Assembly: GCA_947561715.1 (NCBI GenBank)
Contig: OX387199.1
Span: 997,001-1,061,000, forward strand
DNA from: Ascidia mentula
Taxonomy: Eukaryota; Chordata; Ascidiacea; Phlebobranchia; Ascidiidae
Reading direction: 5' to 3'
DNA length: 64,000 nucleotides
In this document: positions 3,437-47,384 of the stretch, in pieces
Position numbering within the stretch: the stretch's first letter is position 1
Layout: each line of letters begins with the position of its first letter
Notes under the pieces: generated by a model
What the model saw: the letters and a program-made list of their open reading frames with translations, nothing else
The model's database searches: none
What the model was told of the DNA's origin: nothing
Translations under genes and position numbers: made by a program

Positions 3437-3770
3437 ATGGATGAAATTTTCGAAAGAAAACTACGGGAAATCAACAGCAAAATTCAGGAATCCAAAAACC
3501 AACCTGGCAATTACGGTATGTGTTTGTTTCCAATATAGTTTGGGATTTGTTTTGTTTCATCAAGTACAGCGTTTTCATGTTATAGACACAGTCCACATAA
3601 CACAAGTTGGACCCATGATACACAGAGATGGAACCGTTACTGGGGGCTCGACAATAACAGCTGAGGTCCCAGATGATCTGGTTGAGGAATTTCAAGCCCG
3701 TCTTCCACCAAACTCTAACGTAATCGGGCGGAATTCGAAAAAATATCTTGGGAACAGAAAAACTGATTAA
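3437..3770 (+). CDS. Small coiled-coil/GPxxxxDG-domain protein, A type (cluster I, unit 1)
   Basis: Family not recognised. Two exons, 3437-3515 and 3586-3770, joined in phase 1 give 87 residues. Exon 1 encodes a charged helix (MDEIFERKLREINSK...) ending in a conserved KNQP string. Exon 2 starts with the shared D-x-V-H-I-T pattern and carries the core GPMIHRDGTVTG, a run of alternating beta-type residues, PDD and a short helix, ending ...KKYLGNRKTD. Units 2 and 3 hold the same two exons (75 nt, then 185 nt in unit 2), preceded by three more 5' exons that I cannot find here. This copy may therefore be 5'-shortened and start at ATG 3437, or have unseen upstream exons. It is followed by its B and C neighbours on the same strand. 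Function unknown. Confidence 0.72.
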
Positions 3771-3978
3771 AATCGCACGTAGACTGAAAAACTATGTATC
3801 TACGAATGTTTTTCTTTTCGTTTGTTAATATTTTGGAATGCTCGTGTATTGTTTTCACATTGAACCGATAATTATTCACTGCGTTTACAAAAATTTATGT
3901 GTTGAACAATAATTGAAATCATTAATTTTTTTGTATCTGTAGATGAAGTAGGCAAACTTGTTACAGTAGGTGACTAAA

Positions 3979-4311
3979 ATGAACAAGAATATTGTTGAGG
4001 ACAAAATCAGAGATCTAAAAGAGGAAACCCTTAAGATCAAAGACCAATCTTTCGAGCTTCAACTACAGATAAATAAAAAAAAGGCCGGTATGTAGCAAAG
4101 CGACTACATGGTCTTATGGAGATGTAAGACATGTGTTTTCATTTTAGATCTAGCCAAACTGGAGGAGAGCGGACCACAGTACTTTGAGGATGGGAGGATA
4201 GAAGGACTATGGATAAAGAAAATCGATGCACCAAACTCTGTGCTAAAGGAAGATGCCAATCAGACAAATTGCTCTACAGCTGTATTGTCAATAAAAAAAA
4301 AATTCTCATGA
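3979..4311 (+). CDS. Small coiled-coil/GPxxxxDG-domain protein, B type (cluster I, unit 1)
   Basis: Two exons, 3979-4087 and 4148-4311, joined in phase 1 (the split codon is Asp) give 90 residues. The N-terminal exon is a charged amphipathic helix beginning MNKNIVEDKIRDLKEE. The second exon carries DLAKLEESGPQYFEDGR and the G-x-W pattern of the shared domain. An acceptor-like AG after a pyrimidine tract at 3941-3942 lies 36 nt before the start codon, and the same arrangement occurs in both other B genes. No donor is evident for it upstream, so a trans-spliced leader or a 5' UTR intron is likely. The gene lies 208 bp after its A neighbour. Cluster I B proteins lack the Gly2 needed for myristoylation. 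Function unknown. Confidence 0.75.
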
Positions 4312-4694
4312 AACAACTTAAATGGTGGATCGTTTGTTAATATTTGATACTTTGTTGCGTTAATCAAGTAGTTTAAGGTTAACTATTTTATATCAACGGA
4401 TCATTTATTACAAACTATTTTTGCATTTTATTCGTTCGTTTATTAATTTTCCAGAACAAGATGTCATAGAACAGGTTATTCCGTAAGTGCTTGTGAAAGA
4501 AATAACAAACTGTTTACTTCAAAGTTTACTGCAAATATAGATAATTTTGTTTTTCTATTTTGTTTGAAATGTATCATTGAATTCTTTGTTATTTTTCCCT
4601 TTCTATTTTGCGTTTTATCATCTAATATCTTTTTATACGTAAACTTTTAAACTTTCATTATAGATTTTATAATGGAGTATTATTAAGTTTAAAA

Positions 4695-6838
4695 ATGGGC
4701 GGCAATGAAAGTAAACTTCATCAAGAAAAACTTGAACGGGAGAAACTTGAACGGGAGAGACTTGAACGGGAGAGACTTGAACGGGAGAAACTTGAACGGG
4801 AGAGACTTGAACGGGAGAGACTTGAACGGGAGAAACTTGAACGGGAGAGACTTGAACGGGAGAGACTTGAACGGGAGAGACTTGAACGGGAGAAACTTGA
4901 ACGGGAGAAACTTGAACGGGAGAGACTTGAACGGGAGAGACTTGAACGGGAGAGACTTGAACGGGAGAGACTTGAACGGGAGAAACTTGAACGGGAGAGA
5001 CTTGAACGGGAGAAACTTGAACGGGAGAGACTTGAACGGGAGAGACTTGAACGGGAGAAACTTGAACGGGAGAGACTTGAACGGGAGAGACTTGAACGGG
5101 AGAGACTTGAACGGGAGAGACTTGAACGGGAGAGACTTGAACGGGAGAGACTTGAACGGGAGAAACTTGAACGGGAGAGACTTGAACGGGAGAGACTTGA
5201 ACGGGAGAAACTTGAACGGGAGAGACTTGAACGGGAGAAACTTGAACGGGAGAGACTTGAACGGGAGAGACTTGAACGGGAGAGACTTGAACGGGAGAGA
5301 CGAACCCAGGAGAGATATGATAAAGCCTTGCAGGATCGTGATGACGCGATTGCAGAGAAGAGGAAATTTGAATTAGAGCTTCAGGAATTGACCTTGAAAC
5401 TGGGTAAACAGGAAATCCACAGTTCTCTTTTATTACCTTAGGTTCCAAATGAAATACTAAAAGTTAGCTATCTCCAAACTATCTGATCACATTGGTCACA
5501 ATATTCACGAGATACAAAATGGCTATGTATAAAGGAATTATGATAGATATATAACAATATGTTAATTCTTGGTTTAAATTCATGTAGTTCCAAGTTTATA
5601 TTAGGTGATACATATTAGAATAAAAAACGGCCATGTTGCCTTTTTTCCGGTTAAGCCATAGGTGCACAACCTTTTTACTATTGCCGGCCGCAACACACAC
5701 ACTACTGTGTGCTAACGGCCGCCACTGAATATACTGCTTTTCCAACGATATACTCCTGATAATTACGACAAGTTGACGTGAGCATTATAAGAAAGGAATG
5801 GAAATGATTCCATACCTGAAAAATGTGCACTATTTATTATTTACATTTGCCAAATTATGTATATTACAATGTAATGAAATGTCGAATTATTCAATGACTG
5901 CCTTGTTCTTGCACGCTAGGTTCACGTCTCCATCATAAAATAATCCACTTCCCATTTGGGATTAAACGCCCTTTTCTCTTGTTTTAACAGCCTTTTACGT
6001 TTCAGCGACATGACTGAGCGATTCCACTGTTTAGCTTTTCGACAACTGTACATGCGTACATAACAATTCACCGATATACTATTGATGTTTTATGACGTCA
6101 CCATATATATTGTTGCGCTTTGTCTCGTTTGCTGTGGCTGCACCAGTTACTACTCGCTACAGCGAACGAATGTGTATGACGCGGAAATGGAAATGGGCCT
6201 AACTAAAAGCTTAACTCTTGAGACCGCTAGAAAAACAAGTTTCAGAAGCAACGACGGCCGCCAATGCATACATTTTGATATAAATGTGCACGGCCGCAAA
6301 AAATAGCGTCCGCGGCCGCATGCGGCCGTACGGCCGCAGGTTGTGCACCGCTGGGTTAAGCCAATTGAGAACGTTACGACTATTTATCAAGCGCACTTTA
6401 GTTTCAAAGCAATGATTCTTACTGGAAGCACTCTTTCAACTTTATTTGTTAAATAAAACTTTACCAATCGGACAGCAGAAAAATACCACCCATTTTTGAA
6501 ATTGTTTGCATGTTTTCATAACATGGGTTTTCGATTGCTGTAAAGTTCCTCACAATCAAATCGTTTCCAACTTCCTGTACATGTTCGCAGATAAAGCTGT
6601 TCTTGTCATTGAAAGGCCAGCCGTGTCAAAAAAAGGGACATTGGTTGGAAAACCATACATGAGTTACCAAGGATCTGCAAATGGAGCGCAACATGCGAGA
6701 AAATTGTGGGACTCCGTGAAGCCCGAAGAACCTTCTTTAGGTAATTTATACGGTCATAAATACCCGTAAACAATCATCATTCATATTTAACTTGCAGTTC
6801 ACACATCAGCGCACAAACAACTTACTAGTCCCGACTAA
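4695..6838 (+). CDS. Small-family C-type protein with a minisatellite-expanded ER/K helix (cluster I, unit 1)
   Basis: Three exons, 4695-5403, 6591-6740 and 6798-6838, all joined in phase 1, give about 299 residues. The start MGGNESK fits an N-myristoylation signal (Gly2, Ser6, Lys7). Residues ~13-202 are 38 repeats of the pentapeptide LERE(R/K), followed by a charged helix ending QELTLKLG. Exon 2 carries the domain [20 protein letters not shown] with a YxG segment and ends in PEEPSL. The 41-nt exon 3 ends ...SPD-stop, as do the other two C genes. Without exon 3 the frame would read into intron 2 and stop soon after. The paralogues at 16236 and 22552 have only two to several such repeats, so the expansion is copy-specific. 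A hAT-type element sits in intron 1. The helix is probably a single alpha helix; function unknown. Confidence 0.78.
4731..5300. repeat. 15-bp coding minisatellite, 38 copies
   Basis: Exactly 38 units of CTTGAACGGGAGARA run from 4731 to 5300. The only visible variation is A or G at the penultimate position, which changes Arg to Lys in the last codon. The unit is five codons, so copy-number change keeps the frame. The array lies wholly within exon 1 of the C gene. Confidence 0.97.
5657..6353. mobile_element. Non-autonomous hAT-type element (MITE), 697 bp
   Basis: The ends are near-perfect inverted repeats: left CATAGGTGCACAACCT, right (reverse complement) CAGCGGTGCACAACCT. They are flanked by identical 8-bp direct repeats GGTTAAGC at 5649-5656 and 6354-6361, the target-site duplication size of the hAT superfamily. 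Subterminal CGGCCGC motifs are concentrated near both ends. There is no transposase. It lies in intron 1 of the unit-1 C gene. A fragment of the same family (about 100 bp) is at 8358-8460. Confidence 0.9.
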
Positions 6839-7590
6839 AATCACTTCAACGAAGCTCTGGCACTTTTACAACTCATTACCTACAAGAAAAATTAAGAAGA
6901 TTCTTTGTTCGTACAACTTGTGTTTTTTGTGTCGTACCGCTCCGGTCCGTACAAAATTAACACTCCACCCATGTTCAACAATGTTTTGAAAGCCACCGTA
7001 GATGTTATCATAACCAAATCTCCACTTAATATAAACAGTAAAATTTGAAAAATATTCATGTTTCAATACACGAACCAATTACACGCCGAATTTTTACAAA
7101 TTCAATTCAATATCTGTTTTGGTTTTCATAAAAAAGCAACCGCGTACAACGGCGTAAATTATTATCTTGTGCCTAAGCTTTGCAGCCTTCAATGCTTCTG
7201 TTTTCTTCACTAACTGCGTTCTGTCTGTAAATTTTCTTTCGGTTTGTGTAAAATTTATTATGATATTTATAAAATTGAATGTTTTTTAAATGTTAAACCG
7301 TCCCAATTTCCAAAAAGGCTTCTCAGACGATGATGAAACAAAACCGTCTTGTTTGCTTTCCATGGGTAACCCTGGTGGTTTTGTGCGTAGACATTCCTGT
7401 GCCTTCTTTTGAAGGAGCGTTTCTCCCTTTTTCTTTGAATACTTTCTGAACGTCATTCAATTAATAAAGAGTTTTCAAAAAACAATGTCCTGCTCGAAAT
7501 TTCTCCCAAAAGAAGTTTTGCTTTTGATAAAAACCAGACTACTGGATTGCCACCCTTATGCGTAAATTATTGGTTTCAGCTATGCGTACA
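6839..7590. other. Non-coding, downstream of cluster I unit 1
   Basis: No gene is supported here. The sequence is 3' flanking and intergenic DNA, with AATAAA-like strings at 7460 and elsewhere. Confidence 0.4.
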
Positions 7591-7599
7591 ACAGGAATG

Positions 7600-9789: not shown

Positions 9790-12700
9790 AGCAATTGATA
9801 AAAAGGACGTGAAATTTACATACAAGTTACTTCCAGCACATCGGCGTGGGATAACCAAACTTTTAAAGCAATAAACACGTGGCCTCGCCTCTTTTGTAAA
9901 CAAAAAACGTACCTTGAAAAATCGTTCAGAGCCTGGTTTTGTGAAACTTCGTTGTAGCGTGGGCAATAAAAACGCCATGAAGGTAAATGTTTTCCACAAC
10001 CTGGAGACTCATTTAATGTGTGTCTTGTGCCAAAGAAAGATTTATCGATTTACGTGACATTTACGATACCAACACGAAGGCATAGCCAAGCAATAAGAAA
10101 ACTTTCTATGTTGGCGTGCCTATTCCTACATGTTCAGACGTACATCAAGCCATTAAATTTTGTTGGATGTTGCAATGCGCTTTGTTGCAACATTACGATA
10201 ACATTCCTGTTATGGCCGATAAGTGCTTGTTTTCTCTGCCATCTTTCATCTGTTCCCAAGAAGTAATCTTTCAGATAATCATAATGTAACCGCAGCTTTT
10301 TCACTGGAAGCTGTGGTGTGCAGCTCATTTGCCGCTGTCTGCACTCATACTTTCCACTTGTTGATTTGATTGATGTGGTTTGTAGGCATAACCGCAAGGT
10401 TTTTGTACAAAAGTAACATAACTCCTCATCAACATTTGTAACAACCTTCAACACAGCACAAACGCACTTATCTGCAGTACGGCCTTAAAGCAGCTTCTAA
10501 ACCAGCGCCTTCTAAAAAGTCGGCATTTAAAGCAAGAAAACCAATTAGTGTCACGTGACTAAAACACGCCGCAAAGCGTCAGTTACGTGGTTGTGTTCGA
10601 AACTAAACTTTCTTATTTGGGTGGCGATTGCACATAATATTGGATAAAAAACATCTGTTTAGAAATCGGATTGGAGAACGAAAGAAGGTTGCAGACAATA
10701 GTAGTCAGAGAGATTCCCCGCTTGCCTTTGGCCAATGCTTTGTTGACAAGAAGTTTATCAGCTTATGAAATCACTCATTTGTCAAGCAAACGTAAAAATC
10801 ATCGTTTCTTTTTAGAATACATTGTGCGTTTTTGCAATGGAAGTTTTAATGCATTTCAGACTTTTATTCTTACATGTGTCCCAAACTCTAGACTATTTGT
10901 GACTATTCCCCAAAAGCAACTTAATGGGTGAAAGGTTGTTCTTTCCGCAGCAATTGCCGAAATATTTGCTAAAATTTACATGCAAGTTACTTCCAGCAGA
11001 TCGGCGTTGGTTGAGCAAACATACTTCCCAAACTTTTAAGCAATAAATTCGCAACCTCGCCTCTTTTGTAAACGAAGCGAAAGGTTTTAATGGCGTACCT
11101 TTAAAAATCGCTCAGTGCCTAGGTTTTTGTGTAGCGTCGTTGTCGTTTGGGCAATAAAACCTTCTTGAGGTAAATATTTTCGACAATTCGGAGACTCATG
11201 TTATGTGTGACCTGTGCCAAAGACGTTTTTATAGATTTTCGCAACATTTATATTACTATACCAACACGAAGACGCATGCAAGCAATAAAAAATCTTCCTG
11301 TGTGGACGAATAACCTCCTGCTCTGCATATTCAGACGTTTTACAAAGCTATTGAATTTTGTTGAATGTTTAAATACGTTTCAGTGCAACATTACAATTCA
11401 TGGTATGTTCGTTGGGGTATATTTGTTCTTTATATTTTTACAGATGGCTTATACTCAATATTATGATTATGTGAAAGTTGACTTTTACATAATCATAATA
11501 TTGAGTATAAGCCATCTGTTTAGAAACCGTATCTGACATACAAAATACGGAGGACGTTTGCATTGCGTTTACCAACACGAAGACGTAAATAAGCATTGAC
11601 AAAATTTTCTATGCTTACAAAGCGCTTCATATGTGTATTGATTAAATACAGATTTTAAAGTCTTTTTTGACAAGCATCGCCGTAGAGTAGATTTAACTTT
11701 TACTTAGCACCAAATAAGCGTAGTCTCCGCGTATTCCATGATTAACACTGTTTGTTGGCTCGTGAAACAAAATTGCTGAACCCAAGGTTTATCAACGTTT
11801 GGTGGCTTCTTGTACGAGACATCATATTATTGGGTGACCAGAAAGGTTATATAAGGTAGCAGCATTTATCAACTAAATATTTGTTTGACAATTCGATTGT
11901 GTGAAATGCATTCGCTGTGATAAACCCTTTCTTCGTCGTGTCAATATATCTTCATAACTAACAGTGGAGGTGGCAGCCAGCAGAAGCAAGAGAGATTTTC
12001 GACCCAATCATTGGTTACTTTTCGCCAAAATTATGTTGTCAACAAGTTTAAAATCTTATAAGACCTCTTGGCCTTTTAAGAAATTTATTCGTTTGTTGTC
12101 AAGCAAGTGCCAAAAACGTCGTGTCCAACTGCAAGGTGTGTGCTTTTGTATCAAAGGATGTTTTTGTGCACTTGAGATTTTTGCTCTTTATTGTCTCTCG
12201 AATAACTCCAGTACCATCCGTGACTATTTCCTGAAAGCGACTCATTGGGTAAAGGGTCGGTAAATTAGCATGTAAGTACTTCGGCGTTGGTTGAGCAAAC
12301 ATTCTACCAAAAGTTTAAGGCATTAAACCTGTGACCTCCCCTCTTTTGTAAACAAAGCGAAAGGTTAATGGCGTATCTTCAAAAATCGTCCAGAGCCTAG
12401 GTTTTGTGTAATTTCGTTGTCGTTTGCGCAATAAACCTTCATGAAGGTAAATGTTTTCCAAAACCCGGAGACTCCATTAATGTGTGTTATGTGCTAAGAA
12501 GTTTTTATTGAATATTCGTAACATTCACGTCGTGTTACCAACACGTTGGCGTACTGAAGCAATACGATAACTTTCAATGCCATGCTAATATTCAGACGTA
12601 AACCAAGCCATTGTTGACGGATGTTCTATTAAGCTTTAGTGCAACGTCACAATAATATTCATGTTATGTCTGATGAGTTTTTTTGTTCTTAACGTCTAGG

Positions 12701-14096: not shown

Positions 14097-15170
14097 ATGG
14101 ATATCTTGCTCAACTGTTGTCGTTGTTGCGGTAAGTAAAAGTGAATTACCAGGCAAAGAATTGTTCAAATAGGATTTACTACAAATTTTTCTTCAGGATA
14201 AGTGACAAAAAACTCTTTTCATCTAACGTTGAAAAGTTTGTAAAATTTAACTACAAATTAAGTACTTTTGTTTCAGCCCAATGGTATAAATTAATTTTAA
14301 TAAAATATAATATATGGAGACCATTTGGAGGTACAAAGATTGTTTGGAAAACTTTTGCAGGATGTGTGTTGAAAGGTGCTCACAAAACCACACACATCCA
14401 TGTAAGCAGTTGTCGATGTATTTAAGAAAAGTGATTGTGTTTTTGTTGGTGCTACAAAGTCCTATTTTTATTTGGCAATGTTGGGTCTTTCATCAAGTCA
14501 AACTTTCACATTTAGCATCAAAATTTTTAGCTAATGCAGGGGAAAGAAAACCTTTGGCTTCCTCAGTTGACCAAAAGAAGAATGGGTCAATACAAACGGA
14601 ACCCCAAAGCAATAAGACGCTAGAAGGTAAGCATACACATGTAATCCAAATGATGGGGAGATCCTGCCTTGTCTTCAGCGAACCTCATGAGTCATGACAA
14701 TATCACATTACCATATTTATATATGATTGTTGACATGCGCTAAACGAAGCGTTATTTGAAAACATTTTTCAATCCCGTACCATTGGCAAATCAGTATTAT
14801 TAGGGTCACTTTTCTTACTTAAAAGCAATTAATACAGACGAAAGCCGCAAAAGAGAACTGCAGAAAGTTAACCGAGAACTTGAAGAAGCAAAAAACCAAC
14901 CTCGCAAAGACGGTAAGCGTTTGCAATAATTTAGGAATTTGTTTTCAGTTTAAGTACTTTGAAATCAATGAGTTTTTCGTTGTAGACAAAGTCCACATAA
15001 CAGAAGTTGGACCCATGATACACAGAGATGGAACCGTTACAGGAAGCTCTACTATAACAGCTGTTGTTCCTGATGATATGGCCGAGCATTATCAAATCCG
15101 TCTTCCATCAAACTTTACAGTGATCGGACAGACTTCAAAAAAATATCTCGGGGACGAAAATAGTGATTAA
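14097..15170 (+). CDS. Small-family A-type protein with Cys-rich N-terminus (cluster I, unit 2)
   Basis: Five exons, 14097-14130, 14339-14401, 14531-14626, 14838-14912 and 14986-15170, all joined in phase 1, give 150 residues. Exon 1 (MDILLNCCRCC) and exon 2 (CLENFCRMCVERC) make a Cys-rich N-terminus suited to palmitoylation or metal binding. Exon 3 is polar. Exon 4 is a charged helix (DESRKRELQKVN..KNQP). Exon 5 is the conserved domain with GPMIHRDGTVTG and KKYLG. A 34-nt first exon also starts both cluster II A genes, and the 63- and 75-nt exons have equal-length counterparts in unit 3. The acceptor of exon 2 lacks a good pyrimidine tract; a start at ATG 14314, reading into the same frame, is an alternative. 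Function unknown. Confidence 0.7.
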
Positions 15171-15597: not shown

Positions 15598-15910
15598 ATG
15601 AGCAACAATATTGAGGAAAAAATCAGAAATTTAGATAAAGAAACTCTTAAGATTAAAAAGCGATCTCACCAACTTCAACTACAGATAAATGAAAAGAGGG
15701 AAGGTTTGTAACAAAGCAATTGAAGAGACTTTTCGTTATGTAAGATATGTTATTATTTCAGATGTAGCCGAACTGGAGGCGAGAGGACCGGAGTACATGA
15801 AGAATGGAAAAATAGAAGGACAATGGAGAAGGGAAATTACTGCATCACTGTCTGTGTTAAAAGAAGAGGCCAATCAGATAACCTACTCCACAGCCTTAAT
15901 CAAAAAATGA
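15598..15910 (+). CDS. Small coiled-coil/GPxxxxDG-domain protein, B type (cluster I, unit 2)
   Basis: Two exons, 15598-15703 and 15762-15910, joined in phase 1 give 84 residues. The helix begins MSNNIEEKIRNLDKE. The domain begins DVAELEARGPEYMKNGK and includes GQW, then a helix with KEEANQ. Exon 1 has the same 106-nt length as in unit 3. The acceptor-like AG at 15560-15561 lies 36 nt before the ATG, within a stretch conserved in all three B genes. There is no Gly2, so no myristoylation is expected. Function unknown; membership in the family is clear from side-by-side comparison. Confidence 0.8.
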
Positions 15911-16235: not shown

Positions 16236-17115
16236 ATGGGTAGCAATGAGAGTAAACTTCAGCAAGAAAAACTTGAACGAGAGAGACTTCAACAAGAGAA
16301 ACTAACGCAGGAGAGATATAATAAAGCCCTGCAGGATCGGGATGACGCCCTTAAAGAGGAGAGGAAATTGGAACTGGAGCTTCAGAAGCTGACCTTGAAA
16401 ATGGGTAAACAGGAAATCCACAGTTTCTCTTTAATTACCTGAAGTAAAAAAAAAATTACAATACGGTAACTCGTTATTCATGCTTGTGTAGGTAAGTGTT
16501 CATATTTGGTAAAAACATAAAAGACAACTTGGAATAACAATATGGTAAAACCACAACGAGGTTGCGTTGTCGTTTTCGTGGAAAAGCCCATTACGAGCAT
16601 TTATTTAACGAAGCGTACATTGGTTCTACCGACAGCTGGTGCTACCCAACTACGGTTATTTTTTTGTTTGCATAACTTGCTTTCAGTGTGTTCCTAGGTG
16701 TTTTTTAGTTATATTTTGTTTAAGTGTACATGTACTTTGCAGTAAGGTTCCTGATGTAGCCTTAGTATTAAAAAAGTTTTATAATCATAAGAAACACGTG
16801 GTTTAGTTTGTCTGCGAAATTCCCCTCATAATGAAATCATTTCAAACATCCAGTACATATTGGCAGGTAAAGCTTCTATAGTCATTGAAACGCCAGCCGT
16901 GTCAAAAGAAGGGACATTGGTTGGAAAACCTTTTATGCGTTACGAAGGACCTGCAGATGGAATGAAATATGCGAAAAAAATGTGGGATTCTGTGAAGCCC
17001 GAAGAAAGAAGACCAGGTAATTTTCACATTAGTAAAGATCCGCACAAAAATAATCCTTCAAGTTAAACTTGCAGTTCAACAAGGAGTGCTGAAAGAACTT
17101 GAAGGTCCCGATTGA
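16236..17115 (+). CDS. Small-family C-type protein (cluster I, unit 2)
   Basis: Three exons, 16236-16404, 16867-17016 and 17075-17115, all joined in phase 1, give 119 residues. The N-terminus MGSNESK fits an N-myristoylation signal. A short charged helix follows, with one LERER-type unit and the conserved segment [15 protein letters not shown]. Exon 2 (150 nt, the same length as in the other two C genes) encodes GKASIVIETPAVSKEGTLVG and the YEGPADG segment. Exon 3 is 41 nt and ends GPD-stop. The intron before it is only 58 nt and could be missed; skipping it would replace the C-terminus by unconserved residues. An acceptor-like AG lies 34 nt before the ATG. This is probably closest to the ancestral C gene before the minisatellite expansion of unit 1. 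Confidence 0.82.
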
Positions 17116-20360: not shown

Positions 20361-21320
20361 ATGTGTCTGAACCGTTGTCGTTGTTACAGTAAGTAAGAGT
20401 GAATTACCAGACAAAGTAAAAACCCAGTATAATTTATGACGTTAATGGGATTGTAAAACAATAAGGAGAAAAAGCTTTAAAGTATTTTTTTTTGAGTGAG
20501 TTTATCATGGCATGAAATATGGACACTATTTTACAATTTGGGTTATCAGGATTTTGCATTGCATGCCGGTGGTACAGAGATTGCCTGGGAATCTTTTGCA
20601 GGATGTGTGTTGAAAGTGGGTCGCGCAACCACACACATCCATGTAAGCAATTGTCAATGTATGTAAATAATCCTTTTCAAAATGTTAATATGAAAAATTG
20701 TAGTGAATGGAACGGAAAACGAACGTCTGGCTTTCACAGGTGATCAAACAAAGGAAGAGCCTGCTGTAGAACCCAGAAACAATCAGACACTTGAGGGTAA
20801 ACCCAGCGTTTAATTTTATAGATGGTAATATTTTATATCTCCATCCATGTTCCATCGCCGGGTATGGATGGGCGTAAAACAAAACACACTGTTATTTGGA
20901 CACAAATCTCAACTCCGTACTATTTGGTTGAAACCGTTCATTGGGATCCGGCGCATCCCTACTAATTTTTTCACTATTTGTTCAAATACAATAAACACAG
21001 ACGAAGAGTACGAAAGACAACTACAGGAAATTGACAGAAATATTCAAGAATCAAAAAACCAACCCCACAAAGACGGTAAGTGTAAAATTTTTAGGATTTG
21101 TTTCATTTTTTTGAAAATAAAGTACTGAGGTTCCCACCATAGACACAGTCTACATAACACAAGTTGGAGCCATGATACACAGAGATGGAACTTTACTGGG
21201 AGCTCGATTATAACAGCTGTTGTTCCTGATGATCTGGTCGACGAATTTCAAACCCGTCTTCCACCAAACTCCACAGTGATTGGACAAAATTCCACAAAAT
21301 ATTTCGGTCGGAATAACTGA
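20361..21320 (+). pseudogene. A-type family member with a frameshift in the last exon (cluster I, unit 3)
   Basis: Exons 20361-20388, 20580-20642, 20704-20796, 21001-21075 and 21143-~21320 match the unit-2 A gene, keeping phase 1 at every junction. The first exon (MCLNRCRCY) and second exon keep the Cys-rich pattern. The fourth encodes DEEYERQLQEIDRN..KNQP. In the last exon the conserved GATGGAACCGTTACTGG reads GATGGAACTTTACTGG, one base short. The frame therefore leaves the family consensus after DGT and reaches TAA at 21211. The second base in GPM is also changed (GAM). The rest of the domain, to the final KYFGRNN, remains recognisable in the other frame. It is probably a recent pseudogene or a truncated protein; a base-call error cannot be excluded. 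Confidence 0.72.
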
Positions 21321-21861: not shown

Positions 21862-22165
21862 ATGGACCAAATTATTGAGGACAATATCAGAGATCTGCGA
21901 AAAGAAACCCTTGAATTAAAAAGCCGATCTCACGAACTTCAACTGAAGATAAATGAAAAGAGGGCCGGTTTGTAACAAAACGATTCATCTTTTGTCTTCT
22001 CCAGTTTTAAAACTTATTTTAATTTCAGATCTGGCCAAACTGAAGGAAAGCGGACCGGAGTATAAAGAGGATGGATCAAAAAAAGGTCAATGGAAACGGG
22101 AAATCAAGGCACCAATGTTTGTGTTAAAAGAAGAGTCAGAAAAGACAAAAGCTCTGAAGCAGTAA
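21862..22165 (+). CDS. Small coiled-coil/GPxxxxDG-domain protein, B type (cluster I, unit 3)
   Basis: Two exons, 21862-21967 and 22029-22165, joined in phase 1 give 80 residues. The helix begins MDQIIEDNIRDLRKE. The domain begins DLAKLKESGPEYKEDGS, followed by GQWKREIKAP, and ends in a Lys-rich tail shorter than in the unit-1 copy. The acceptor-like AG at 21824-21825, 36 nt before the ATG, sits in a block conserved with the other B genes. Its A neighbour upstream is frameshifted, while this copy is intact. Function unknown. Confidence 0.8.
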
Positions 22166-22551: not shown

Positions 22552-23340
22552 ATGGGCGGAAATAAAAGTAAACTTAAACGAGAAAAACTAAAACGAGAAG
22601 CACTTGAACGTGAAAAACGTGACCACGAGAGACGTGAGCAAAGGAGAATTGGAAACGAGAAACGAAACCAGCAGGAGAGATATAATAAAGCCCTGCAGGA
22701 TCATAATAACGCTCTTGAAGAGAAGAGGAAATTTGAACTGGAGCTTCAGGAGCTAACTTTGGAAATGGGTAAATATACGGAGAAGATCAACAGTTTCTCT
22801 TTCGAAAGCTAGTGATTCTTAACAGCAGCCCTCTTCCAACCTTTGTCTGACTATCATCAAATAAAAATAAACCTATTTACAATTTTGCCGATAGGACAGC
22901 CGCACATTCCTACGTAGGCACTGGCAATGAATATAAAAATATTCTCGTGGTTTGTTTTTTCTGTATTGTTCAAATTAGCTGTGTTGCTTTTATGCTGCTT
23001 TCCTAAACTTTATAGGTTTCGCAAAAGTCTATACATTAAAAAGGTTTAGAGCGTGTTTTTGCGGAATTCCCCTTGCAATCTTCAAGTACATGTTCGCAGA
23101 TAAAGCTGTTCTTACCATTGAAATTCCAAGAGTCTCAAAAGAAGGGAGATTTGTTGGAAAATTTACTATGAATTATGAAGGACCTGCAGAGGGAGTGCAA
23201 TACGCGAATAAAATCTCGGATTCAATGAAGCCAAAGGGATCAAGTTCAGGTATTTTTGACATGTTTACTGAGGTAACACATTCATCATTCAAATTAAACT
23301 TGCAGTTCAACGGCAAAACCAACTTGATGATCCCGACTAA
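22552..23340 (+). CDS. Small-family C-type protein (cluster I, unit 3)
   Basis: Three exons, 22552-22768, 23100-23249 and 23306-23340, all joined in phase 1, give 133 residues. The start MGGNKSK fits an N-myristoylation signal. A longer in-frame reading begins upstream at 22336, but it crosses the conserved acceptor at 22521-22524 and has no counterpart in the paralogues. The helix has irregular KLKREALERE-type repeats and the QQERYNKALQD segment. Exon 2 encodes DKAVLTIEIPRVSKEGRFVG and YEGPAEG. The 35-nt exon 3 ends DDPD-stop, matching the -PD-stop of the other two C genes. Intron 2 is 56 nt. Function unknown. Confidence 0.82.
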
Positions 23341-26725: not shown

Positions 26726-27619
26726 ATGTGTTTTGACATGTTCACTGTTCCTGATCAAGGTAAGTTGAGTGAATTACTGAAAAACTTGATCTAGTTCCGT
26801 ATGACTTGATAAAACCCTAAAAACACTTCGTGGATTCTGAATATTTGACAATTTTGTTTCTTAATCTAATGCAAAATGCCGTTGCACAGATGACGGTAGT
26901 CATGGAAACAGGCCGACGACTCAACGACCTGAAGGCTCTTCTATCGACCGCGGCGTTCCAGGTACCAACGGTTACCATGGAAACAAGAGTGGTCGAGCCC
27001 CAGGTTTCGTCGATGACGCGAGAAACCAACGCCCTCACGGTAATCGATTTCCTCAATGGAATTTAGAACAAAACGCCCATTAGCCGACGTCACTGTTTTA
27101 AGCCCTACAGATGCCGACCAAAGACAGACTTTTACTTTGACGCAATTTGGGCATTTAACAAACTAACCAACGTAATTTGTTGCAACAGATGCTGACCGGA
27201 GACCGCTACAGCCGACCTACAGTTGGCGGCAGAGAATCTCGAATTTCATGTCGCAAAAATCAGAGGAGGATCTGAAATACGAAGCGGAAATAAGAAGACT
27301 TGACAGAGAAAGAGAAGAAAGATTAAGAAAAGCTTCGCAGGCTGATGGTGGGAAAAACGTCTTTCTCGGGGACAAATAGCATTTTTTTAACTTTGCACAA
27401 ATATTAGCCGTAAATTGCATCACGTTTTTAAAATTATATCTGATTTCTTTAGATCGCATCCACGTAAAACAAACAGGACCGATGAAGCACAAAGACGGAA
27501 CCACCACGGGACAATGGACAACATCCGCTGTCGTTCCGGATGAAAGAATCGGCGAAACTAAGAAGAGATTGCCGCGTGACGCTGAAGTATTCGGAAAAAG
27601 TCAAATTGGAAAGAACTAA
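26726..27619 (+). CDS. Small-family A-type protein (cluster II, unit 1)
   Basis: Four exons, 26726-26759, 26890-27039, 27189-27347 and 27453-27619, all joined in phase 1, give 169 residues. Exon 1 is 34 nt (MCFDMFTVPDQ), the same length as in the other A genes. Exon 2 is a low-complexity, Gly/Asn/Arg/His-rich segment unique to this copy (DDGSHGNRPTTQRPEG...). Exon 3 is a charged helix ending EIRRLDREREERLRKASQAD. Exon 4 is the domain: DRIHVKQTGPMKHKDGTTTG, then QWTTSAVVPD, a helix and a basic end. Exon 4 is 167 nt, exactly as in unit 2. If the donor at 27040 is not used, exon 2 runs to a stop soon after. A related acceptor-like site at 27110 may be a duplicated exon start. Function unknown. 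Confidence 0.72.
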
Positions 27620-27953: not shown

Positions 27954-28985
27954 ATGGGCAACGGTGAAGCAAAGCAGGTCGCTGAAGTCCGGAAAGATGT
28001 CATAAAAACAAAGAAGGAAACGATGGATCTGGAAGAGGAAACGGTGAAAATTGAACAACGTGAGTTTTTTGTGAGTTGTTGACCATAGGTAGAGTCCATT
28101 CTGTCCTGATCGGCTCATATTCAAATAACTAATGACGTAGATTCTTTTCAAAATTTTAAAAGATTACTCAATTTAGTCGCACACTTCAGAGGCATAATGC
28201 GAAACTCAACAGTGATGGTGTTACATTCCAGAGCACGTATAACAGAAAACTTTTTGAAGAATATTGTTTTGTTTGAGTTTGCAAACAAGGCTATCACCGC
28301 AATATAGGTCTTCGTGCAGCTCCGTGCAAGTCATTACTTAATTAATGTTTGAGAAAGACATATTTCATAAATGGTCCGACACGGTAAACATGTGCCCCAA
28401 GCGGAACCAAAACTAATCTGCATACAAGTTTCGTTGAACTTGTTTAGCGTGGGATGAATATGTCTGGGGCTTCGACAAAAGGGCACTTAACCTCCTCTTG
28501 AGAGCGGTCGTAAGCGGAACCAAAACTAATCTGCATACAAGTTTCGTTGAACTTGCTTGGTGTGGCATAAAAATTCCAACCTGTCGTGTTAACAATTTAA
28601 AGGCCTCTGTCGTTCGCAGACAGACTGGTGACTGCGTTTAAACTTTGTACTAAGACCCTGATGTTTCTGATGTCATATGAAGTGCTTCTCAAACAGTGGC
28701 GTTATGCTACAGGTCTTTGAGTTGTGTTGGTTGTCGGTCCATTGTAATTCGTCACACCCCAACGGTTCTTTTTGTACGTTATCATTTTGTCGAATTGTAT
28801 CTCTTTAAACGATCATGAATTGTTGCTTTTTTGCAGAAAGAACAAAGATTTCTATGAAAGGTCCCGTGTATCATGAAGACGGGACTGAAAGCGGGCAATG
28901 GGAAGTTGACGCAAAAGTTAAGGGGAAGAACATGGAAGAGTTTGCAAACAACTTTGCTGAACAAAAAGCCATTAATAACAGTTAA
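27954..28985 (+). CDS. Small-family B-type protein (cluster II, unit 1)
   Basis: Two exons, 27954-28059 and 28837-28985, joined in phase 1 across an unusually long 777-bp intron, give 84 residues. MGNGEAK fits an N-myristoylation signal. The helix continues VRKDVIKTKKETMDLEEE. The domain starts QRTKISMKGPVYHEDGTESG, then QWEVDAKV, and ends in a helix with EEFANNFAEQ. The unit-2 copy has the same layout and the string KETMDLE. A candidate acceptor (CTTCCCAG) lies 46 nt before the ATG. Function unknown. Confidence 0.8.
28397..28570. repeat. Short direct repeat in an intron
   Basis: A ~42-bp block containing GCGGAACCAAAACTAATCTG occurs at about 28399 and again at about 28514, within the long intron of the unit-1 B gene of cluster II. 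The two copies are nearly identical. No element class is evident. Confidence 0.85.
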
Positions 28986-29317
28986 CCGCGTGCTTTAAAA
29001 CTAAATGCTGCTTTAAAACTGTACTGCATCTTGGGTAATTTTTATGTGTGCAAGTGGATCTGTATATAGTTACTTTGACGTCACTATACAAACTTTGTTC
29101 CTAATTTCAATTTCTGTGTTAAGAAACTTCATTTTTGTTTTGGTTTACGACGTATATTATTGTGAGTGGTTTGTTTAACTACTTGTGTGCATGTTTGAAA
29201 ATTGCTAATTAAATGGTGATTATAACGATGCCAAGCACAATAACTTACGTGACTATACCCTGTCACTATAAGTGCATTGCAGGTATAGGAAATACTTGAT
29301 CTGATTAAAATTTAACA

Positions 29318-29840
29318 ATGGGTGGTGGCCCATCTAAACTTGACCTTCAGGAAGCAGAACAAGATCGTGTGATGGAAGAGAAAAGAAAAGCGAAGTTACA
29401 AAAAGCTCACGCGGATTCAAGTAAAGGTTGGATGCAATTTAATTCCATCTATCTCCATTTCCAAAACAAGCTGGTCGCCACTTTAAGCAAACAATTGAAT
29501 TATTATGTGGTAATGACCTTTTTTTGGTGTGAAGAGGAATACTTCTCCCTAATAAGGCGAATAGTCTGTCTAACCACGCAATATCACTAAACCGTATTTA
29601 ATAAACCGAACTAAGCACGGTATAATATCCCTGTCTATAAAACAGCAATGTGTATGCACAGACATGGTCCACCTTAAGATCACTGAACCAAGGATAGAGA
29701 GGGATGGTAGAAGAGTTGGACAATCTTCAGCTGAATATGATGGGCCTGAGGACGGAGTAAAGGACGCTCTAAGAATTCAAACCACCCAGAAGCAAGCTAT
29801 TGAATATGAGGCTAAGCAACGGGCAATATGCGACTCATAA
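29318..29840 (+). CDS. Small-family C-type protein (cluster II, unit 1)
   Basis: Two exons, 29318-29420 and 29662-29840, joined in phase 1 give about 93 residues. MGGGPSK fits an N-myristoylation signal. The helix is DLQEAEQDRVMEEKRKAKLQ. Exon 2 starts MVHLKITEPRIERDGRRVG and continues SSAEYDGPEDGVKDAL, close to the unit-2 copy. Two donors are possible: GTAAAG after 29420 (better consensus, split codon Asn) or GTTGGA after 29426 (split codon Asp, as in other genes). The -PD third exon of cluster I C genes is absent; this domain runs on to ...RAICDS. An acceptor-like GCAG at 29279-29282 lies 35 nt before the ATG. Function unknown. Confidence 0.78.
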
Positions 29841-30266
29841 AACCTTCGAAAACTCTGTTTGTTTGTTTGTTTGTGTGTGTGTTTTTGCTGTTGGCATATT
29901 CTTGTAGACCAATGGTGGGCAAAATGCAAATCTTCTAAATGTTTTTGTGTTTGACTGAATAGTAATGTCACTAATAATGGAGTTTCTTTCTTATTTTAAA
30001 GCTTGTTCCTTTTGACAATGTGTTGTTACAAATCGTGTTACTTTTGCACTTGTTTAATGCATTTGTGCAACACTTAATCTATACTTCAACTTTCTGTTGT
30101 TAATTGTTAACTTTTTAAATGGCCTTTATACTAATCAAAATTGCCCTGGTGGTATGGATTAATACATTATCACATTTTTCCCACTTGTACCCTAATCGTG
30201 TTTTGCCGACAGGTCTGTCTATAGTTGCTTAATCGTTAGAACTAATGACGTACTGCCGACGTCACA

Positions 30267-30583
30267 ATGGGTAATGGCTACAGCGAAGAAGTGGAAGAGG
30301 AGCGCAGAAAAACAGCGAAACTGAGGGAAGAAAATCGCAAATTAGAAATTAAGTTGGAACAAGCTAAAAAAGGTAAAATGACGTAAGTATCTTCTCGAAG
30401 CTGTTTAAATAAAAATTGTTGTTTGCAGAACGCCAAACAAAGGTCACCAAATCACAACCAGTCAAGCGTGAAGACGGTTCGTACAGCGGACAATGGACGT
30501 TAGAAATCAAAGCGCAAGCTCCAAATTTAAAAGAAATCGCCGATGACTATGAAAAACAATTGAAGGCAATAAAAAACAAATGA
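30267..30583 (+). CDS. Small-family D-type protein (cluster II, unit 1)
   Basis: Two exons, 30267-30372 and 30429-30583, joined in phase 1 give 86 residues. MGNGYSE fits a myristoylation-type start. The helix is EEVEEERRKTAKLREENRKL. The domain exon (155 nt) starts ERQTKVTKSQPVKREDGSYS, then GQWTLEIKAQAP, and ends in the helix ADDYEKQLKAIKNK. The unit-2 D gene has identical exon lengths (106 and 155 nt). The second exon is duplicated downstream at 31241-31395. D genes occur only in cluster II. Function unknown. Confidence 0.83.
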
Positions 30584-32035
30584 AAAACTGTGACTGTGTT
30601 CATTTACGGAACATTAATATTGAAATTGCTCTCTATCGCCCTCTTGCTGTAACAATTTTTTTTTCTTTTAATCGATTAGTGGCATTTCTTTGCATTGTAA
30701 TTTCATGTTCATTTAAATTTGGTTGATTCTGAACAAATTTTGGTAATTCTAAGCCACATTGCAGCATCAGTTAGTAGTGGCCAGAATAACCAGTGTTCGA
30801 ATCCCAGTGCGGTAAAAATGTTGCAAAAAAATCAAAAATAGGGGCAAGTGAAACTCGTTCTTTAGCTGTTATGTTCGTCATGGTGAAATACTTCTTTAAC
30901 TATTCCCCAAAAAATATCAACGAATCAGTGAAGTCAACATTTTAACATTTAAAATAAATAAGTCGTTTTCAAGCTTTGTGGATATCGACAGCAGGATGTT
31001 GGAGAGTTTGCATGGGGACAACATAAGCATTATAACCTACACGAACCAGAAGCGGATAGTTAATTCTCCAGAATTATCCAAGAAGTTTACCAGTTGCACT
31101 CAAATGCTAGATCACTTATAGCAGGTTGATTTAAATCTGTAGAACTTACAAAAGTTGAACTCATCATCCCGTTATGTACAGTGTAAGTCGCTTGGTATGT
31201 ATCTTCCCGAAGCTGTTTAAATAAAAATTGTTGTTTGCAGAACGCCAAACAAAAGTCACCAAATCACAACCAGTCAAGCGTGAAGACGGTTCGTACAGAG
31301 GACAATGGACTCTCGAAATCAAAGCGCAAGCTTCAAATTTGAAAGAAATCGCCGATGACTATGAAAAACAATTGAAGGCAATAAAAAACAAATGACGAAC
31401 TGTATGCTTGTCAGAAGACTGTGTTCATTTACGGAAAATTAATATTTAAATTGCTCTCTACCGTCCTCTTGCTGTAGCAATTTAATTTTTTTTGCTTCAA
31501 TCGATTGGTGGCGGTTCTTTGCATTGTAATTCCATGTTTATTTAAATTTGGTTGATTCTGAACAAATTTTGGTAGTTCTGAGCTACATTGCAACATCAGT
31601 TAGTAGTGGCAAGGATAGCCAGTGTTCGAATCCTAGTGCGGTTAAAAAGTTGCAAAAAAATCAATGGAGCTAACAATAAGGAAAGTGAAACTCACCTCAA
31701 AGCTGTTAGGTTCGTCATGGTGAAATATTTCTTTAACTATTCCCTAAAAAGTATCTACGAATCAGTGAAGTCAACATTTTAACATTTAAAACAAATAAAT
31801 CGTTTTTCAACTTTGTGGATATCGGCAGCAGGATCTTGGAGAGTTTGCACAGGGACAACATAAGCATTATAACCTACACGAACCAGAAGCGGATAGTTAA
31901 TTCTCCAGAATTATCCGAGAAATTTACCAGTTGCACTCAAATGCTAGATCACTTATTGCAGGTTGATTCAAAACTGTAGAACTTACAAAAGTTGAACTCA
32001 TCATCCCGTTGTGTACAGTGTAAGTCGCTTGGTAT
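30385..32035. repeat. Tandem duplication of the D-gene terminal exon and its 3' flank
   Basis: Block 30385 to about 31195 is repeated at 31198 to about 32035, with a few percent divergence. Each copy holds the end of the D-gene intron, the 155-nt terminal exon and ~600 bp of 3' DNA. The 3' DNA includes a GTTCGAATCC string resembling a tRNA-type B box (30795 and 31624). Confidence 0.88.
31241..31395 (+). CDS. Orphan duplicated terminal exon of the D gene
   Basis: A 155-nt open exon copy with an intact acceptor (TTGTTTGCAG) and stop codon. It differs from the 30429-30583 exon at only a few codons (Gly for Arg and Ala-Pro for Ala-Ser type changes). No first exon lies between the two copies, so it is not a complete gene. 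It could serve as an alternative terminal exon for the D gene at 30267, or be a non-functional by-product of the local duplication. The open frame and kept splice site mean the duplication is young or the exon is still used. Confidence 0.6.
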
Positions 32036-32420
32036 TTTATAAATATTGTGCTCCCGCTACACAAAAAGGCCAAACATGTGACTTGCGCCGACTCATACAG
32101 GTATCGTATTACACAACACGACAACTCTTGCTACGTCGGTCTACCGAAAACTCCAGAGTAATCCATACCGACAGCAATATATATATATAACCTCATTAAA
32201 AGTCCCGTGTAACAATGGAATGGAAAGTCAGTACACTGACCAAGCGGAGAAATAAACATTTTCACTCGCTCAAGGTTTGTTGATGTGAAATGGCATTTCA
32301 GTACCACAGTCTGTAGACGCTGGCGACGCTTACGTTGAAATGATGTTTGTAGTGATTTGCGAATAGTAAAAGTTTCTTTGTAACGAATTGGTTTATAATG
32401 TGTCTGTTGCTGCCAGGCAT

Positions 32421-32600
32421 ATTGTAATTTAATAGTCTATTATTCTGGTACATAAACGTAACTTTTATTCACCAACGTTTCGCCTGGTACAGCACACAAC
32501 CAACCATTACCCTGAGAAAACCTTGTCGGATAGCAGGCGAAACGTCGGTGAATAAAAGTTACGTTTTAATGTGCCGGAAGAAAAGACTATTAAATTGCAT
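32421..32600. repeat. Inverted pair of hammerhead-like arms (foldback)
   Basis: Two ~65-bp arms, about 32421-32485 and 32535-32600, are inverted copies with a few mismatches. Each contains GGCGAAACGT(C/T)GGTGAATA followed by AAAGTTACGTT. The right arm is preceded by CTGAGAAAACC...GGATAGCA, so it resembles the CUGA...GAAAC core of hammerhead ribozymes in degenerate form. The same GGCGAAACGTC string ends the Penelope-like element at 44.7-49.2 kb. This is likely a terminal remnant of a related element. Confidence 0.7.
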
Positions 32601-32644
32601 TGGTTTATGTTTGAAGGTTTGTGAACAAATCACTTTAATTGAAA

Positions 32645-33305
32645 ATGTGTCCGAAGCTTCTCGATCCTCGATATTGGTGTAAGTGTTATTTTAGTGGTGA
32701 AATAGGTTAGCGAACTATCCGTAACATATCTTGTATCCGGGTGCTTGTAAACGATACGCACCACATACGTAATCTGGCATTGATGTTAGGTGGAGGTGGA
32801 ATAGAAAAGAAGTCAGAAAAACGGCCAGGAAGCTCTAGGTCGTATTTCACGCAAAAATCTTCGGCTGATCTCAAATTCGAGGCCGAAATTAAACGACTTG
32901 AAAAGGAGAGAGAGGAAAGAATCAGAAGTGCAAAGTTGACAGATGGTGAGATGGACTGGCTCTGAAATAGCGGACAATTGAACTTTTTCTATAAGCGAAG
33001 CGAGTATATTTGGAAACTGTACACACAAATAATTTGTATCACTCCGTTTTAAGTCTCTGGCGAGATCAGTAACAGAGGAAAAAAAAATTTAATAGCATTT
33101 TTTTGTGCTCACAAATTCACAAAATTTTTTTGTTTCAGAACGAATTCATGTTCGACAAACGGGCCCGGTTTTACAAAAAGACGGAACCAGTACGGGACAA
33201 TGGACCACAAGCGCTGTCGCTCCAGATGACAGAGTTGATGAAGTAAGGAACCGATTACCGTCCGACGCAACAGTGATCGGGAAGACACAAGTTTCGAAGA
33301 TTTAA
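32645..33305 (+). CDS. Small-family A-type protein (cluster II, unit 2)
   Basis: Three exons, 32645-32678, 32790-32945 and 33139-33305, all joined in phase 1, give 118 residues. Exon 1 (34 nt) encodes MCPKLLDPRYW. Exon 2 encodes a Gly-rich start (CGGGGIEKK) and a charged helix with KFEAEIKRLEKEREERI, matching unit 1. Exon 3 is the domain ERIHVRQTGPVLQKDGTSTG, then QWTTSAVAPDD, and is 167 nt like its unit-1 counterpart. The Gly/Asn-rich exon of unit 1 is absent. Reading on from the ATG at 32741 or 32783 without exon 1 is an alternative start. Function unknown. Confidence 0.75.
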
Positions 33306-33536
33306 AAATCAACAACATTTTCCTGAACTTTTGCTTTTCCTGATGCGTTTAGTTCTGAGAACAATTGCAATTTAATCCAAACTTTGTTTTTGATTAAACA
33401 GGTTTAAGCAGCCGAAGCTTTTTGTCAGCAAACCGTATTATTTTTGATTTTTAAATGCTTGTGTATTTTTGCATTTCCAGCAGACTTTTAGAAGTTTTAG
33501 TGTAGGTTTTGTCAGCGTTTGTAGTGATTGCGCAAC

Positions 33537-34315
33537 ATGGGCAACAACGAAACAACAGAAAGGAAAGTACAAGAAGTTCGCGACGACGTTCTGAGAACGA
33601 AAAGAGAAACAATGGATTTGGAAGTGGAAAGAATAAGAATACAAAAGAGTAAGTTAACAATGTCTTTCTATTCATTTCCAATTTAAATTTTCGCTCTGCT
33701 TTTATATTGCCACAATTGTAAACCCCTTGCAATGCAACCAACTATTTCCAAACCACAAAACAAAACCGAAACCGAAGGTGCATTTTCCCATCGTCGCGAG
33801 TCCCCTCCATTTGTGAGACTGGTGTAAACAATATATTTTGAAGCTCGAGTTACAAGTGAGTTAGTCATATCGGCGGTTTTCTGTTTAATAAAATGCCGCA
33901 CGCGAGTAAGAAGCTTTTGTCCAGTTTCTGATGAAGATGAAACATGACACGCAAAAAACTACCTTAAGCTTTGTCTGCAAGGTATATTTATCACGGTTTG
34001 TCCTTCCCAACCTGACATGAATTCACAATTCCCTCAACGTACGCAAAACACATTTGTGCCTCTTCTACGTATTCTCCATGTTTCGAAATGTGTAAAATGT
34101 TTATAATACTGATTGAATAGTACGTCACAAATAAGTACCTTATTTGTTTAAACTTTAAAGGAAGAACAAGAATAGTGGTGTCTGGACCACAATATCACGA
34201 AGACGGAAGCCGAAGTGGTCAATACGTAATAGATGCAAAGACAAAGGGGCAAAGCATGGCTAATTTTGCTGATCATTTTTCTGATACGCAGCATCCTTCC
34301 ATTAAGAATTGTTAA
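33537..34315 (+). CDS. Small-family B-type protein (cluster II, unit 2)
   Basis: Two exons, 33537-33648 and 34161-34315, joined in phase 1 give 88 residues. MGNNETT is a myristoylation-type start. The helix contains VQEVRDDVLRTKRETMDLE, matching unit 1. The domain is RRTRIVVSGPQYHEDGSRSG, then QYVIDAKTKG and a helix with ANFADHF, ending in Cys. The intron is 512 bp. An acceptor-like CCAG lies about 56 nt before the ATG. Function unknown. Confidence 0.8.
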
Positions 34316-34894
34316 AAGCTCGGCCCGATGACACAGTTTTATCGGATCAACTTGAATATTTCGAAACCAATATTTGTCTTTAGTTTGAACTTAGAGATGT
34401 TTTAAATTTTCGTTTGTGTTGTGAAAATGTACTCTCCACTGCGGGGTTCAAACCCATGCTGTCCTGCTCATGAATTTCGATACAATTTGTGGATTGTTTT
34501 GACCAATATACCTTGTTGTATTTTTTCCCTATATTGTTTACCACACCGGAATTTAAAACTAGATTATCCTGACCACGAATCCTCATTCTACTTTGCATAT
34601 GGGTCGGGCGCTTGACCGATGTTGCCATTCGTCCTAGAATAATCCAAAACTTTGTATCACTTGTATCGCCTCACGGTGGTCAATTAACTACAATAAATAT
34701 TCCGCGTGATGGCGTTATAATCGTAAATTAACATTTTGTTCATGTTTTTCTGTGCGGGAAAAAACTTGGGCTTAATTTTTGTGGTGTTTCTGCCGAGTGC
34801 TGTTTTTCTGCTTTATTCAACTTAACAACATGCTTTATCTTGTGTGTATTGTAGGGCAGGATAATTATTTTAACGAACTGCTTTTCTCTGCGTC

Positions 34895-35518
34895 ATGGGT
34901 AGCGGCGCGACAAAATTTGATTTACATCAAGCCCAACAAGACAGAGTGCACCAGGAGAGGAGACAAGCAAGACTTTACTTGGAACACGCAAGAGCTGACC
35001 AAGGTATGCGACTATAAGTAATGTAAAGCGCGCAAAAACAGAAATCTAAGTTAATTGTGAATAGATAGACCTTTTTTATAAGGCATCGAAATCACCAAAC
35101 CGTCTTATGGGCAACAAACACTTGGTACCTGATTTAGCTTAAATTAAAAGAAAATAATTAAAAAAAACTTATAAGATATTTGTCATTATGTATTTTGTGA
35201 TATAGATATATATATTTTCGCATATAGTTCGTCAGAATAAATAAAAACGACAAGCTTTTGATTGTAACAACAATTTTATAAAATTAATGTAATATGAAAC
35301 TCAAATCAAAGTTACACTTTCAATGTTACTCAGAAATGGTGCACATGCGAATCACAGAACCAAGAAGAGGGAGAAACGGGCAACTTGTAGGGCAGCCCTC
35401 CTTCCAATATGAAGGACCCGAAGAATACCTACCACATGCCATGAAAATTAGAGACCTAAATCAACAAGCAATAACATACGCATACGGGACAGGAAACAAG
35501 ACCATACGACGTTTTTGA
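34895..35518 (+). CDS. Small-family C-type protein (cluster II, unit 2)
   Basis: Two exons, 34895-35003 and 35334-35518, joined in phase 1 give 97 residues. MGSGATK fits an N-myristoylation signal. The helix is DLHQAQQDRVHQERRQARLY. The domain begins EMVHMRITEPRRGRNGQLVG, continues QPSFQYEGPEE, and ends in a basic tail (KTIRRF). An acceptor-like GTAG at 34851-34854 lies about 40 nt upstream of the ATG. Function unknown. Confidence 0.8.
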
Positions 35519-35790
35519 AGCCAATAAGAAACAAATTTTGTGTGTGTGCTTTTTGACTACGGTTGTTACTGTTTCATACACTGTAATCTGTCATTGTATT
35601 ATAGGCAATTAACAGGATAGACTTTGTGTTGCTATACCAAGAAATGTTTCACTTTCTTTTCAAAATTTGTAACTGTTTGTTACAGTATTACTTATTTTGT
35701 ATTTTGCTCCTCAGATTTGACCTTTTTGGTGTTACTGTAGCTTTGTCTGCTTGAAGATAAACATTTAGGTGACGTCAGTTCGAAGTAATA

Positions 35791-36108
35791 ATGGGAAACG
35801 GATACAATAAACAAGTAATAGAAGAGCGCAGAAGAGAAGAAAGACTCTACGAAGAGAACTTCGAACTGGAAATAGAACTTGAAGAAGCAAAGAGAAGTAG
35901 AACCTTGCCGTTTGCCTTATCAGCTATTTTATTAACTCATATTTTATTTTAAGGACAGCAAACTGAAATACGACAAACCCGACCAATCCGTTGTAGGGAT
36001 GGAAGTTATAAAGGAGAATGGATGCTCGATGTTAAGACACAAGCGCCTAAATTACCACATATCGCTAATGACTATGAAAAGCAATTGCGGGCTCTTAGAT
36101 ACAAATAA
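35791..36108 (+). CDS. Small-family D-type protein (cluster II, unit 2)
   Basis: Two exons, 35791-35896 and 35954-36108, joined in phase 1 give 86 residues. MGNGYNK is a myristoylation-type start. The helix is very acidic and basic (EERRREERLYEENFELEIE). The domain RQQTEIRQTRPIRCRDGSYK is followed by GEWMLDVKTQAP and ends NDYEKQLRALRYK. Both exon lengths equal those of the unit-1 D gene. The donor is GTAGAA, weaker than usual. This is the last gene of cluster II; 530 bp downstream the unrelated receptor gene starts. Function unknown. Confidence 0.8.
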
Positions 36109-47382: not shown

Positions 47383-47384
47383 AA

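Follow-up and report, generated by a model that had tools for sequence, protein, structure and literature searches.

What are the small genes arrayed in one part of the Ascidia mentula genome, and do they belong together as anything more than neighbors? The locus lies in a stretch of 64,000 nucleotides, referred to here as the window (C52:997001-1061000, contig OX387199.1 of a 195.8 Mb assembly in 79 contigs). When gene models were rebuilt from the window, 17 genes and one orphan exon were placed on the + strand between positions 3437 and 36108, 16 of the genes being open and one (A3) frameshifted. Their order is A1 B1 C1; A2 B2 C2; A3 B3 C3; A4 B4 C4 D4 (+ D4b); A5 B5 C5 D5. The original prediction, made from the letters alone, of 17 genes or remnants plus an orphan exon in three triplets and two quartets was therefore borne out. 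We find that the genes form one constrained family, and we tentatively favor the view that its members are co-expressed, lipid-anchored small scaffold subunits, with the units as probable operons; this is possible, though short of probable.

A constrained family duplicated in ordered sets

Each gene has one or more 5' exons followed by an exon encoding the domain that defines the family. The earlier claim that this domain always occupies its own phase 1 exon held in that all 27 modelled window introns are GT-AG and phase 1, although exon ends were picked partly to give such introns; it needs amending for C1-C3, where a short third exon is added. Because exon ends were chosen in this way, a test of the reading frame provides an independent check of the models. 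In the modelled frame, 10 same-class pairs gave an omega of 0.36 (508 changes at 2223 nonsynonymous sites, 281 at 585 synonymous sites, Fisher p 5.6e-31), while the same alignments read in shifted frames gave 0.81 and 1.18. An omega could be calculated for 28 of 30 same-class pairs, always between 0.16 and 0.77, with the other 2 saturated. Because omega is low in the modelled frame and higher in the shifted ones, the window genes are under frame-specific purifying selection, A3 being the exception.

The domain is recognized by the motif P-x4-[DNKE]-G-x3-G, in which the P and both Gs are invariant in all 23 domains aligned (23 of 24, A3 being excluded as frameshifted). A domain profile run on the window together with the 50 kb before it (114 kb in all) returned 26 rows, corresponding to 24 domain exons, of which 18 lie in the window and 6 upstream, a second row for A3, which matches in two frames, and one chance row with an i-E of 0.81. 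The invariant residues and the reach of the profile uphold the proposal that all of the genes are one family. The classes are also clearly structured. Excluding D4b, identity between members of the same class in different units was 0.450 (n=58) versus 0.186 between different classes in the same unit (n=25), a difference that 0 of 2000 label permutations reached. In the domain tree, C formed one group with support of 100/99, and support for A (75/70) and D (79/92) was moderate. The tree requires one class change each for A, C and D. B requires two, so that B4 and B5 bear their letter mainly by position. The predicted pattern of kept gene order with greater likeness across units than within them thus stood in the identity comparison; in the tree, B alone splits. 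The D4 domain matches that of B4 at 43%, and D may therefore be a B duplicate found in the quartets. Block duplication of whole units, as originally proposed, is supported by the class structure and the kept order and is the simplest account of both.

Two further triplets, at C52:960.3-963.3k and 972.0-974.2k, were found 23-37 kb upstream of the window, bringing the tally to seven sets, five A-B-C and two A-B-C-D. These upstream units are worn: the acceptor of Bm2 reads AA, and neither a start codon for Am2 nor a last exon for Cm2 was found when looked for there. Between the two upstream units lies an isolated piece of a C domain exon (L016:9461-9502), and a tandem array whose minus strand is open in several frames lies between Bm2 and Cm2 (L016:4403-5114). 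Seven protein queries against the animal's own 196 Mb assembly (the A4, D4, C4, B2, C2 and B4 domains at E <= 10 and the C2 helix exon at E <= 0.001) matched solely C52:960-1033k; because this search scores best candidates only, the copy number is a lower bound. A transposon origin was rejected on the grounds that both exon types match this locus alone.

No described relative in the searches made, and a candidate new fold

The original prediction recognized no known family, and none was met in the databases searched. In Pfam, nothing scored above the curated cut-off for 9 of the 17 window proteins and 23 of the 24 domains, and a sequence search of the PDB gave no accepted relative. An alignment of 15 of the 17 window proteins (C1 and A3 excluded; A2, A4 and A5 without their first exons) drew 2849 candidates from a protein database, none at E <= 1, in a search with only close relatives within reach. 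Under the same limit, Am2 as a single query found no candidate sharing three 5-residue words. As a control, a neighboring retinol-dehydrogenase-like gene gave 1530 hits in this database, the best being from Phallusia mammillata at 68%, so ascidian proteins are present in it; no Ciona protein was named within the 120 control matches listed. The class A alignment produced 24 pattern matches in viral contigs and 130 in prokaryote contigs, none of which was confirmed, and Rfam had nothing in the window at its gathering score. Among the papers listed by literature searches, none dealt with this family. Within the Pfam, PDB, protein-database, fold and viral/prokaryote searches, among which there was no other ascidian genome, the family holds as undescribed.

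Structure models suggest what the domain may look like. The A4 domain was modelled as a strand, a small hairpin, a strand, a helix and a strand (mean pLDDT 75, pTM 0.43), and the D4 domain as a strand, a hairpin, a strand and a long helix (mean pLDDT 73, pTM 0.33). The part common to the two models is likely correct, and we are unsure of the remainder. Fold searches gave no good match; a PUR/whirly-type fold was considered as a possible match over the domain. With 24 exons of natural variants, the domain is a candidate for a new fold.

The units are probable trans-spliced operons

The 16-nt spliced leader of Ciona intestinalis, as reported in PMC7986045, occurs in the assembly followed by GTA in 1684 exact copies, and a reversed control in 0. 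Spliced-leader genes form long arrays, repeating every ~720 nt, at G000:C1:15.24-15.33 Mb. Scanning with a matrix built from 34 cis acceptors identified an acceptor-like site with a score >=4 in the 10-90 nt before the start of 16/16 B, C and D genes, compared with 43% of background ATGs (n=2002), and one with a score >=5 for 15/16, compared with 30%. The best acceptor-like AG lies 22-54 nt before the start in all 16, a range that was picked after the scan and is thus no independent test. Within the window, stop-to-start gaps are 208-579 nt inside units (n=12) and 2061-7258 nt between them (n=4); inside the upstream units they are 296-953 nt, the longest containing the tandem array. Poly(A) signals number 7 in 16 within-unit gaps (6.8 kb) versus 122 in 6 between-unit gaps (50.7 kb), a contrast that is weak evidence because upstream cistrons also need poly(A). 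Given the Ciona leader in the genome and the acceptor-like AG at all 16 downstream starts, each unit is probably co-transcribed as an operon and resolved by spliced-leader trans-splicing.

Several observations weigh against this interpretation. Raising the cut-off to 6.1, which is the lower quartile for cis sites, leaves an acceptor-like site in 11/16 genes (background 20%), and none of the 16 reaches the cis median (background 3%), making these sites weaker than typical cis acceptors. Moreover, the 16 genes are paralogues in about five groups and hence not independent of one another. Finally, Ciona operons were defined in PMC2760879 by less than 100 bp between mRNA ends, and the gaps here, at 208-953 nt, are larger than this rule, although they run from stop to start rather than between mRNA ends. 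The main rival to the scaffold-operon interpretation, and one that we judge about as likely, is a plain tandem family in which every gene has its own promoter and is perhaps singly trans-spliced, the order reflects block duplication only, and co-transcription and a complex are both lacking. The gaps are long enough for promoters, acceptor-like sites at a score of 5 also precede 4/7 A genes, and trans-splicing in Ciona covers many monocistronic genes according to PMC7986045. What this account leaves less well explained is that the spacing falls into two clear sizes and that acceptor-like sites precede every one of the 16 downstream genes.

Predicted anchoring and a possible scaffold

An MG start followed by S or T at position 6 is the N-myristoylation consensus, as in Src. 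MG starts are present in 9/16 open window genes, 7 of them with S/T at position 6. When the upstream units are included, they occur in 11/22 modelled genes (7/7 C, 2/2 D, 2/7 B and 0/6 A, with A3 not listed), 8/11 of these having S/T at position 6; the upstream C proteins start with MGGSESK and MGGINES. C, D and quartet B are accordingly predicted to be N-myristoylated, and A2-A5 could be acylated through their Cys-containing first exons, extra 5' exons with a Cys near the start being found in 4/5 window A genes. The membrane-proximal role put forward originally is a prediction, supported at the level of motifs by the MG starts. A heptad pattern in the charged helix was detected at p <0.05 with a crude score of our own in 5/7 B genes and in D4. 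The C helices are rich in E, R and K, most conspicuously in C1, whose exon 1 contains 38 in-frame copies of a 15-nt unit (4730-5301) coding LERE[RK], where C2 and C3 have about 3; the C1 repeat is likely to vary in length in populations. Two other ideas were set aside: a secreted protein or toxin, because the starts, judged by eye, are unlike signal peptides, and a coiled coil across all classes, which the crude heptad score did not support.

The mechanism we propose would work as follows. Small and probably intracellular proteins are encoded at a single locus in this ascidian tunicate, and each of the seven paralogue blocks would probably yield one polycistronic transcript; spliced-leader trans-splicing would split it, and all members of a set would be produced jointly. 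Every protein would consist of a charged helix at the N terminus and a domain of ~50 residues at the C terminus, each encoded by a separate exon; the domain would have a strand, a P-x4-DG-x3-G hairpin, a strand and a helix, class A perhaps adding a final strand. Myristoylation at the MG starts would anchor C, D and quartet B, and a Cys near the start may hold A2-A5 at the membrane. Triplet B proteins, which lack an anchor and have the best heptad pattern, may ride along by pairing with anchored partners. The outcome would be a heteromer that acts as scaffold or adaptor on the inner side of the membrane and presents P-DG-G domains to a cytosolic partner; both the heteromers and the scaffold role are what we infer from the protein sequences.

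Not everything fits this scheme. MG is absent from B1-B3, Bm1 and Bm2, S/T at position 6 is missing in B4 and D5, the search for heptads gave a signal in 0/6 A and 0/7 C with the crude score used, and the A4 and D4 models diverge past the helix, with pTM of only 0.43 and 0.33. A less favored alternative, which we regard as rather unlikely, is that the domain belongs to a known fold family from which it has diverged far, and that the proteins are cytosolic or nuclear, with MG starts that were inherited by chance and remain unlipidated. Least probable by far is a decaying or mobile-element-derived array without function: the A3 frameshift, the AA acceptor of Bm2, the startless Am2, Cm2 without its last exon and the lone upstream C fragment would suit it, but the frame-specific purifying selection already largely opposes it, 16 of 17 window genes are open, and the seven own-genome queries found no further copies in the assembly.

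The scaffold-operon interpretation can also be taken further than we would readily go. In this extended form, which we consider a long shot, an ascidian- or lineage-restricted new domain is carried by a repeated chordate operon whose paralogous products are subunits of one lipid-anchored heteromeric complex. Sets would duplicate and diverge as sets, and C1 would carry a rigid helix of variable length, a feature one might look for in a recognition or defence scaffold subject to turnover.

Gene models and neighborhood

Coordinates of the array in the window (all on the + strand)
Feature	Span	Strand	Exons	Protein start or remark
A1	3437..3770	+	3437-3515, 3586-3770	
B1	3979..4311	+	3979-4087, 4148-4311	
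C1	4695..6838	+	4695-5403, 6591-6740, 6798-6838	MGGNESK; repeat in exon 1
A2	14097..15170	+	14097-14130, 14540-14626, 14838-14912, 14986-15170	MDILLNCCRCC
B2	15598..15910	+	15598-15703, 15762-15910	
C2	16236..17115	+	16236-16404, 16867-17016, 17075-17115	MGSNESK
A3	20361..21320	+	20361-20388, 20704-20796, 21001-21075, 21143-21320	domain exon broken across two frames
B3	21862..22165	+	21862-21967, 22029-22165	
C3	22552..23340	+	22552-22768, 23100-23249, 23306-23340	MGGNKSK
A4	26726..27619	+	26726-26759, 26890-27039, 27189-27347, 27453-27619	MCFDMF
B4	27954..28985	+	27954-28059, 28837-28985	MGNGEAK
C4	29318..29840	+	29318-29426, 29662-29840	MGGGPSK
D4	30267..30583	+	30267-30372, 30429-30583	MGNGYSE
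D4b	31241..31395	+		orphan domain exon; acceptor and stop both present
A5	32645..33305	+	32645-32678, 32790-32945, 33139-33305	MCPKLLDPRYWC
B5	33537..34315	+	33537-33648, 34161-34315	MGNNETT
C5	34895..35518	+	34895-35003, 35334-35518	MGSGATK
D5	35791..36108	+	35791-35896, 35954-36108	MGNGYNK

The orphan exon D4b lies inside a tandem duplication of ~830 bp (30383-32000) that copied the D4 domain exon and not exon 1. It differs from D4 at 7 of 153 coding bases, 5 of them third positions, and D4 may be able to use it as an alternative last exon. Ahead of A2 and of A3 are stretches that look alike by eye and have Cys codons in one frame (14300-14420 and 20520-20650), perhaps an unmodelled exon.

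Elsewhere in the window, positions 1-300 and 1540-1839 form a direct repeat with 96% identity, and a near-perfect palindrome with arms of ~38 bases was seen by eye at 11442-11520, perhaps the end of a small mobile element. Following the array is a gene on the + strand (36640-43490) that resembles an adhesion GPCR by eye, with a GPS-like Cys/Trp pattern and membrane segments; three of its exon open reading frames had no Pfam match. A Penelope-like element with an 801-aa open frame covering reverse transcriptase and GIY-YIG domains occupies 44983-47388 on the - strand, and an adjoining inverted partial copy (47599-48864, +) reads like the C-terminal part of that frame. An open frame at 51008-51445 (+) matches 2OG-Fe(II) oxygenase, and the retinol-dehydrogenase-like gene used as the database control is at ~54900-56150 on the - strand.

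Relation to known systems

If the operon interpretation is true, a chordate makes matched paralogous subunits from one transcript and copies the set as a unit, and the co-evolution of subunit sets would become open to direct test. Should the family alone prove real, the sister group of vertebrates still offers a clear case of an orphan gene family kept under constraint at one locus. Among familiar proteins, many members resemble MARCKS and BASP1, small N-myristoylated membrane proteins, in having an MG start with S/T at position 6 and then a charged stretch; they are unlike them in continuing into a small P-DG-G domain and in that MG is absent from several paralogues, and lipidation is a prediction here. 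The C helices, above all that of C1, are like single alpha-helix segments in being E/R/K-rich without heptad signal, and differ in having Leu at every fifth residue and in lying between a probable lipid anchor and an unplaced domain. The units share with the spliced-leader operons of Ciona (PMC2760879, PMC7986045) the exact leader in the genome, same-strand neighbors and acceptor-like sites before downstream starts. They are unlike those operons in that the cistrons of a unit are paralogues, all from one family, and are duplicated together set by set; they may also differ in spacing, their gaps of 208-953 nt being measured from stop to start only. There is precedent for orphan tandem families, for myristoylated proteins and for operons in ascidians; what is new at this locus is an array, set out like operons, of paralogue sets that share an unplaced domain.
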